Below are positions 30,099 through 31,395 of a stretch of DNA of 64,000 nucleotides, piece by piece; positions within the stretch are counted from its first letter, which is position 1; each line of letters opens with the position of its first letter. The notes beneath the pieces are model-generated. The model was not told where the DNA came from, did not search any database, and worked only from the letters and a program-made list of their open reading frames with translations. This DNA is from Cercospora beticola (lineage: Eukaryota; Ascomycota; Dothideomycetes; Mycosphaerellales; Mycosphaerellaceae), in assembly GCF_033473495.1 (NCBI RefSeq), contig NC_088938.1, forward strand, positions 1,364,001 through 1,428,000, written 5' to 3'. The position numbers and the translations under genes were made by a program.

Positions 30099-30606
30099 GC
30101 TGCCGCCGGCCTTGAGGCTTCGCCCGGGTGGCCTGGGGGGAATGCGCAAGGGGCATATAATAATGGTCGAGACGGAGGAAGAACATCCTGGGCGAGTTCG
30201 CGAGTTTGTCAACTCATGCGACAGACAAGGCTGAGAGGCCGCACGAAGGATCTCGTGCGGCGTGAGGGCGCTGTAGCTGGCAGCTGGCGGCATGAAAATA
30301 GAGTTCAGCTCCAGCCAGCTCCAGCCGGTAGCTGGTCCGAGCTTTCGCTGACGCGACGCAGATAAAAAGCTCCAGCGGTTAGGTATAAATATGGGAGTGT
30401 CAATTGCATGAAGTATGCTCGCGAGTATGGTTATAGACTGGTCCATGCATGTTGTTGCTGTTTTTGGACAATATTGGAAGGCAGGGGCGTGTCAGGGTGC
30501 AAAAGTGAATGCAGCGCGTATTGCACCGCACCAACTAGACGGTCAAAAATGCAAAAAAGACAGCCGGCGAAGACTGTTGATCACAACCTGATCGCTTGAT
30601 CACATG
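30099..30606. other. Upstream region of the C2H2 gene and tRNA 3' flank
   Basis: Holds the C2H2 promoter and a cluster of AGCTGG/CCAGCT repeats around 30270-30340. No other gene was seen. Confidence 0.45.
30553..30558 (-). terminator. Possible Pol III terminator (T6) of tRNA-Val
   Basis: Six Ts on the minus strand 49 nt beyond the tRNA 3' end, followed by a T5 run a few bases on. No earlier T-run of four or more was noticed. Confidence 0.4.
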
Positions 30607-30737
30607 TACTTTCGTCGAGACTTGAACTCGAGACCTTCAGTGTGTTAGACTGACGTGATAACCACTGGAGACATATTAGTATGTGGGTAATGGACCATTT
30701 GGAGGAGGTGCAAACTCTTACACTACACCACGAAAGC
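30607..30737 (-). tRNA. tRNA-Val (anticodon AAC), D-loop interrupted
   Basis: Read on the minus strand, 131 nt. The two ends pair over seven positions (GCTTTCG with CGAAAGT, one G-T wobble), with discriminator A at 30607. The anticodon stem TCAGT/ACTGA holds loop CTAACAC with AAC; the T stem TCGAG/CTCGA holds TTCAAGT. After removal of 57 nt (30665-30721) the D region becomes GTGGTGTAGTTGGTTATCAC, a normal eukaryotic tRNA-Val D-arm, and the tRNA is 74 nt. The B box (GTTCAAGTC) matches the consensus and most of the A box is intact in the DNA. Without that removal the D-arm cannot form. The insertion is not at the canonical tRNA intron site (37/38). Confidence 0.8.
30665..30721 (-). other. 57-nt GT...AG intron-like insertion in tRNA-Val
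   Basis: The insertion starts GTAAGA, has TACTAAT ending about 10 nt before the terminal CAG, and has the length of mRNA introns in this window. A four-base direct repeat (AGTG) at the borders means the exact cut could shift by a few bases. Confidence 0.65.
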
Positions 30738-31395
30738 CTTGATTGGATGGCAGAAGTGCTATCTAGGTTATTATAGTCGTTTAACTAGATGAGGAATGCA
30801 AGGGTGAAGCCGGGTCCGAAAGCGGGACTTTTTTCCACTCTTTCGCCCCACCACAGCTCACAGAGGTCTATCACGCCAATGATCCAAGCTACAATGACAC
30901 TTTTAGCATCACTTTCATATTGCTAGGTTGTCCAGACAATCTGAGCATTCAACGATCTCCCAGCCAGCAACCCTTTCACCCCTGACTATCCAGAAGTCCC
31001 ACACGCGATCCGACGATGCAAAAAGCATGCATCTGGCATAACAAGACAGCTGTATAGTTGCTGGACTCTGCAGAATACTCATGAGTGAACTCGACATTGC
31101 AGTCTGGTATCATGCCGGTATACAGTATCGAATAGCTACCGCATGGACGATGGATACGTTTTCAGTCCATCAATCATACCTCAAGCGCGACGTCTGCCAA
31201 TTCATTGCCGCCAAAGAATGTCCAAGAATGCATTTCACGACAGCACTGTGGTTGTCGAAATGCTCACAGACACCATGCGGATTCTCGACTCAAACACATC
31301 ACCTTTCCCTGCGTTTGATGAGGTTGCAGATCAGTCCTTCTTGCTGTGTGAACCTGGACTTGTCAGCAGCGATACCCTTTGCGCCGACGCTCGAC
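30738..31395. other. Intergenic, nothing recognised
   Basis: Upstream flank of the tRNA gene and 3' flank of the P450 gene, 658 bp. Frames on the plus strand are antisense or noise. Confidence 0.45.

Follow-up and report, generated by a model that had tools for sequence, protein, structure and literature searches.

The stretch of DNA analysed here (the window) comprises 64,000 nucleotides of contig NC_088938.1 of the fungus Cercospora beticola and holds, on its minus strand at 30737-30607, a gene for the valine transfer RNA (tRNA) with the anticodon AAC, whose D-loop is split between positions 16 and 17 by a segment of 57 nucleotides (nt), as laid out in Table 1. Left unspliced, the window yielded no tRNA with ARAGORN (bacterial code) or with Rfam at gathering scores; once the 57 nt were deleted, ARAGORN called tRNA-Val(AAC), the identity that a first-pass annotation of this DNA had given the split gene. 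A custom-written structure scorer, which rates stems and invariant bases, found no parse of the unspliced gene and a score of 34.9 after splicing, the uninterrupted tRNA genes of the genome reaching 32-35, with two at 30.9. In a chance control over 508 half-overlapping 500-base chunks of the window, taken on both strands, removal of GT..AG segments gave at most 25.7 except in the two chunks that contain the Val gene, and the maxima for other dinucleotide pairs were 24.5 (CT..AC) and 25.8 (TG..GA). The inserted segment is very probably a U2-type spliceosomal intron in a working nuclear tRNA gene, and one of about 30 such introns distributed over at least 27 tRNA genes of this fungus.

Table 1. 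The interrupted tRNA-Val(AAC) gene of the window and motifs in its flanks.
Feature	Positions	Strand	Description
Exon 1 of tRNA-Val(AAC)	30722..30737	-	Positions 1-16: 5' strand of the acceptor stem, 5' strand of the D-stem, start of the D-loop; GCTTTCGTGGTGTAGT
GT-AG intron, 57 nt	30665..30721	-	Between D-loop positions 16/17; GTAAGA..TACTAAT-ATGTCTCCAG; full tRNA restored on removal
5' splice site GTAAGA	30716..30721	-	Sequence motif; GTAAG is the commonest donor of tRNA and messenger RNA (mRNA) introns in the genome
Branch-site-like TACTAAT	30675..30681	-	Branch A to intron end, 11 nt
3' splice site CAG	30665..30667	-	Sequence motif
Exon 2 of tRNA-Val(AAC)	30607..30664	-	Position 17 to discriminator base A73; no 37/38 intron
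TATAAT, possible TATA box	30770..30775	-	About 35 nt upstream of the Val gene
T6 run, possible RNA polymerase III (Pol III) terminator	30553..30558	-	About 50 nt downstream of the Val gene; beyond the 40-nt limit of the terminator count

A DNA search of the genome (36 Mb, 10 contigs) brought up three further Val(AAC) genes, and three of the resulting four carry a GT-AG intron, at two D-loop sites. The gene at C4:3714513 has its intron at the site used in the window gene, 77% identical to the window intron; the gene at C5:1872706 is interrupted two positions further on, by a dissimilar GT-AG intron of 55 nt, and the gene at C6:1064707 is without one. Removal of the introns from the three interrupted genes gives one identical 73-nt tRNA. 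These paralogs, with their introns and identical exons, rule out a lone dead insertion at the window locus. The first-pass annotation had proposed a spliceosome-type D-loop intron in a single odd gene, with an inactive insertion as the other option and the lack of a mature spliced tRNA, taken together with intact Val(AAC) genes elsewhere, as the sign of a dead copy. The gene itself is as described and a spliceosome-type intron is the best reading, but the gene is not alone: introns of the same kind occur in 26 other tRNA genes, which makes them a genome-wide feature. A copy without a GT-AG intron does exist among the four Val(AAC) genes, but the other three are interrupted, and an inactive insertion is unlikely in view of their identical exons, their two intron sites and the 24 further interrupted genes, among them all Phe and Cys genes found. 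An exact scan of viral contigs with the Val exon gave no match.

Genome-wide, the baits were RF00005, the genome's own tRNA exons, known fungal tRNAs and a few B-box places. The resulting inventory, incomplete in that the RF00005 searches scored 62 of 905 candidates, comprises 54 complete tRNA genes, of which 27 carry 30 GT-AG introns and 27 carry none. Interrupted isoacceptors are Val, initiator Met (iMet), Thr, Cys, Phe, Leu(CAA), Leu(CAG), Lys, Asp, Ala, Ser(CGA), Ser(AGA), Ser(TGA), Arg(ACG) and Arg(CCT), together with two Glu-like genes, and their spliced structure scores are 32.6-35.5 against a background of at most 25.8. The introns lie in the 5' acceptor strand (two Cys, one Glu-like), the D stem (three Thr, one Asp), the D-loop (three Val, two iMet), at 25/26 (Leu(CAA)), in the variable region (Leu(CAG), Lys, Cys), in the T arm (two Phe, Ala, Ser(CGA), two Arg(ACG), Arg(CCT), two Asp, Lys) and in the 3' acceptor strand or at the T-stem border (Ser(AGA), Ser(TGA), two Glu-like). 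None of the 30 occupies position 37/38, and 20 of the 27 interrupted genes parse with both GT-AG and 37/38 introns. Lys L065 and Cys L122 combine two GT-AG introns each with a 37/38 intron, the Glu-like gene L097 has one GT-AG intron on each acceptor strand, and all three Thr(AGT) genes found are interrupted.

Kept out of the 54 were a mitochondrial-type trio (L019), the fragments L066, L068, L120 and part of L067, and nine unsettled loci (L014, L092, L095, L096, L099, L105, the first gene of L098 and two L076 genes); a two-intron scan of 12 left-out or related loci settled L097 only. The 27 uninterrupted genes include L018 and the second gene of L098, both weak at 30.9, as well as L002 and the Ile gene of L004, which stand outside the structure scoring. 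The B-box pattern, with 190 matches against 201 for the reversed pattern, was useless for counting tRNA genes; 11 new places fetched from 100 B-box places gave tRNA genes in L098, L101 and L106, tRNA-like parts in L099 and L105, and nothing recognised in six. Seventeen fungal tRNAs used as bait matched two iMet loci only. Given the unspliced sequence of 20 interrupted genes out of the 27, with introns of up to 200 nt allowed, ARAGORN found no tRNA at 15, the right isotype at L030 and a wrong isotype at four (L015, L016, L035, L106). Since most of the interrupted genes tested were missed or misread, standard tRNA finders miss real genes.

The 30 tRNA introns resemble the mRNA introns of this genome in consensus and in length. 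They measure 51-61 nt, start with GTAAG (13), GTGAG (7), GTACG (5) or other donors (5), with GT[AG]NG in 28 of the 30, and end in CAG (24), TAG (5) or AAG (1). The branch-site motif CTRAY is present in 26, mostly 10-14 nt before the intron end, against a background of 5.9% among 5213 length-matched GT..AG segments of the window and 11.7% among shuffled introns. Nine mRNA introns of the actin, EF1A, H3 and H4 genes, placed by protein alignment, are 52, 54, 55, 55, 56, 58, 61, 152 and 252 nt long, so that seven of the nine fall within 52-61 nt, and eight contain CTRAY; GT-AG ends were imposed in their placement as they were in the tRNA parsing. By donor consensus, branch site and length, the tRNA introns fall into the U2-type class, and these signals point to removal by the spliceosome. 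The spacing of intron motifs in the window showed a mild excess at 50-54 nt only (13 vs 5.7). Sequence shared at length was confined to the two paralogous Val introns, other matches being 14-16 nt long. An introner-like family was considered and was not seen among the 30 introns, beyond which the window gene alone was searched against the genome. The introns of L069 and L072 have identical first 14 nt, GTACGTTCAATTCT, which are B-box-like.

Junctions were also located from structure alone, by removing every segment of 38-99 nt irrespective of its ends at 19 loci (18 of the 27 interrupted genes plus L092). At 14 of the 19 loci, no segment outscored the GT-AG one: it was the sole best in Thr L106, Cys L093 and Ser L069, it shared the top in two- to four-way ties at six more, and at five D-loop loci 11-19 segments tied. 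It is very unlikely that these introns are of the ectopic kind found in archaea, Cyanidioschyzon merolae and nucleomorphs, excised by the tRNA splicing endonuclease and with GT-AG ends that are incidental. Some eukaryotes do have ectopic tRNA introns attributed to that enzyme, as far as the available parts of two papers describe them (PMC3978253, PMC4090602), but in C. beticola the ends, branch motif, spacing and length of the introns match those of mRNA introns, whereas none of the 36 scored 37/38 introns starts with GT and their lengths are 9-48 nt. A bulge-helix-bulge fold at the intron borders, raised by the first-pass annotation, did not appear in strict register (a 4-bp helix flanked by two 3-nt bulges where exons and intron join) in any of the 30 GT-AG introns, but the same register was present in just one of the 36 ordinary 37/38 introns that formed the positive control and failed on the other 35, which leaves this test without weight on its own.

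The exons of the interrupted genes are under selection. Among 12 paralog pairs, which are not independent of one another, the exons (71-73 nt) are identical in nine and agree at 63/71, 66/71 and 69/71 positions in the remaining three, over introns that are 42-77% identical and in two pairs lie at different sites. Interrupted paralogs (two iMet, two Arg(ACG), two Cys) differ from each other at seven stem pairs, in every case on both sides and with pairing kept; between iMet L070 and the iMet gene whose sole intron is at 37/38, seven pairs differ, six on both sides and one left unpaired in the latter gene. Different introns at different sites lead to the same tRNA in Val and in Asp, and Ala, Lys and Asp copies without the intron in question run straight through the junctions. 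The relaxed exons and broken stems of tRNA pseudogenes were not seen. Within 40 nt downstream, a T4 run follows 21 of the 27 interrupted genes, the figures being 15 of 23 for other tRNA genes and 8% for random sites, and a TATA motif at -60..-18 precedes 11 of the 21 interrupted genes with enough flank, 7 of 23 others and 5.4% of random sites. By eye, many tRNA genes have a CCAAT-like motif in the 40 nt or so before them, one case being 30742-30746 (minus strand) of the window, and the T-runs downstream are often followed by GC.

Searching with exons turned up Phe and Cys genes, two of each, and none of the four was uninterrupted. Pattern searches gave no uninterrupted Phe T-arm within three mismatches in the whole 36-Mb genome, and for uninterrupted Cys only the Cys intron's own end joined to exon 2; more diverged uninterrupted copies could escape such patterns. 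A single anticodon normally suffices for all Phe codons, as another does for all Cys codons, and since no uninterrupted copy was found, the GT-AG introns of Phe and Cys must most likely be removed in the living cell. It would be highly surprising if the interrupted genes were dead tRNA copies with insertions, with intact copies supplying the working tRNAs. Genes without a GT-AG intron are at hand for Val (L036), Lys (L027-L029), Ala (L023/L075), Arg(ACG) (L032), Asp (L101), Ser(AGA) (L007) and one iMet, and true fragments exist (L066, L068, L120), but identical exons over diverged introns, fully compensated stem changes, the interruption of every Phe and Cys gene found and that of all three Thr(AGT) genes speak against dead copies.

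Several observations count against a set of working genes with spliceosomal introns. One Val(AAC) gene and one of the three iMet genes have no GT-AG intron, and the window Val gene itself is therefore not proved necessary. Four of the 30 introns contain no CTRAY. The junction test covered 18 of the 27 interrupted genes; at L015, L016, L030, L091 and L092, the last of which was dropped afterwards, other segments scored 0.5-2 points above the GT-AG segment, and L030 parses unspliced at 31.8, two points under its spliced parse. The anticodon arm of the Glu-like pair is not settled and was read as CAT. Genes for Trp, Asn and Pro are absent from those recovered, as is a settled His gene, so the searches do miss genes. 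Lastly, introns in the D arm or T arm interrupt the internal promoter boxes.

About half of the recovered tRNA genes, including all Phe and Cys genes found, hold mRNA-like introns, and the mRNA splicing machinery of C. beticola therefore probably has to splice tRNAs too. Decoding is likely to depend on the spliceosome for all Phe and Cys tRNA, probably for all Thr(AGT) tRNA and for the tRNA from two of the three iMet genes, with transcripts that are sometimes spliced twice, before or beside the endonuclease, and that come from Pol III genes often with split boxes. In the proposed sequence of steps, Pol III would transcribe the intron-bearing precursor, the nuclear spliceosome would recognise GTAAGA, TACTAAT and CAG, excise a lariat and join the exons, and the spliced tRNA would then fold, have its ends processed and receive CCA. 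Where a gene also has a 37/38 intron, the tRNA endonuclease and ligase would take that one out, and introns of the acceptor stem would call for spliceosomal removal before or along with end processing.

T-arm introns cut or shift the B box, the 5' part of which is usually kept beside the donor. Judged by the B-box consensus, the unspliced match at T-arm-interrupted genes amounts to 9-11 of 11 positions, and to 7 in the Phe pair; CGTTCAATTCT, a 9/11 B-box match, is contributed by the intron of Ser L069. TATA-like elements upstream might make up for the split boxes. U6 is a Pol III transcript, and the resemblance to intron-bearing fungal U6 genes, drawn in the first-pass annotation, is borne out in this genome, in which one U6 gene (L110, G000:C7:2731448-2731635) has three GT-AG introns of 49, 50 and 52 nt and a second copy (L109, C2:3146896) is uninterrupted. 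Two 5S rRNA genes were matched with 47 of 1696 candidates scored, both uninterrupted (G000:C8:1330931, C9:602152).

About 115 nt downstream of the window Val gene, in the same orientation, an open frame starts at 30491; the relatives of its protein are named C2H2-type, the closest named ones being from Cercospora berteroae (67% identity), C. beticola (61%) and C. zeina (52%), over 76% of the query. This neighbour would allow the GT-AG segment of the Val gene to be part of an RNA polymerase II transcript, for instance the C2H2 gene's 5' leader, with the tRNA as a relic. We give that reading almost no credence: 26 other tRNA genes are arranged alike, the window exons are identical to those of two other interrupted Val genes, and a T6 run separates the tRNA from the open frame.

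Some further loci were noted in the course of the inventory. L099 (G000:C1:524100-524600), which is uncounted, is a probable Arg TCT-like tRNA with a T-stem GT-AG intron and an acceptor stem that is not settled. L018, L076, L095 and L096 form a tRNA-like family, GGGGCTGTGGTCCAATGGTAAGAT..GCCTGCTCCA and close variants, in which the anticodon arm carries long inserts that vary greatly and the anticodon is mostly not readable. L004 (G000:C7:2750480-2750551) was read as tRNA-Ile(GAT), an anticodon given as unknown in eukaryotes except C. merolae in the available part of one report (PMC3978253). In contig C2, the three tRNA genes of L019 (G000:C2:3502591-3503121), for Ile, Lys and Leu, look mitochondrial, and mitochondrial DNA may have been inserted into the nuclear genome there.

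In standard teaching, tRNA introns do not depend on the spliceosome. If the present interpretation is true, tRNA introns can be removed in one more way than by the endonuclease-ligase pathway and self-splicing, essential tRNAs that need the spliceosome tie translation to mRNA splicing, and many Pol III genes can become hosts of spliceosomal introns. The genome would offer a testable system for the splicing of introns only 4 nt into the mature tRNA, for Pol III transcription with split A and B boxes and for intron gain. No precedent for spliceosomal introns in tRNA genes appeared among the open-access matches listed, which covered no preprints and few subscription papers, and according to a 2017 paper on U3, in its available part, frequent interruption by introns is known for no small structured RNAs other than U3 and U6 (PMC5832005).

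The introns of fungal U6 small nuclear RNA and U3 small nucleolar RNA genes are a close likeness, being GT-AG introns in genes for small structured RNAs; here, however, the hosts are many tRNA genes, interrupted in the acceptor stem, D arm, variable region and T arm, with two GT-AG introns plus a 37/38 intron in some of them. Canonical 37/38 introns likewise interrupt tRNA genes and need removal, but they lack a GT-AG consensus, and the tRNA endonuclease is the enzyme that cuts them. Fulvia and Dothistroma, hosts of introner-like elements, belong to the same fungal class as the genome studied. Those elements are comparable as an intron invasion in Dothideomycetes, as described in the accessible part of PMC4457414, whose main text gave no hit for tRNA in a word search, whereas the tRNA introns here share no family sequence beyond the two Val introns and matches of 14-16 nt. 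The ectopic introns of archaea, C. merolae and nucleomorphs also fall in D and T arms, sometimes several per gene, but are characterised by a bulge-helix-bulge or by the lack of a defined motif in the portions available, where removal of the non-canonical introns of nucleomorphs and C. merolae is attributed to the splicing endonuclease (PMC3978253 and PMC4090602 for the likeness, PMC4090602 for the removal); those described here have GT-AG ends, a branch site and mRNA-intron length. What is new is the class of host, tRNA genes; the introns themselves group with the U2-type on the sequence features tested.
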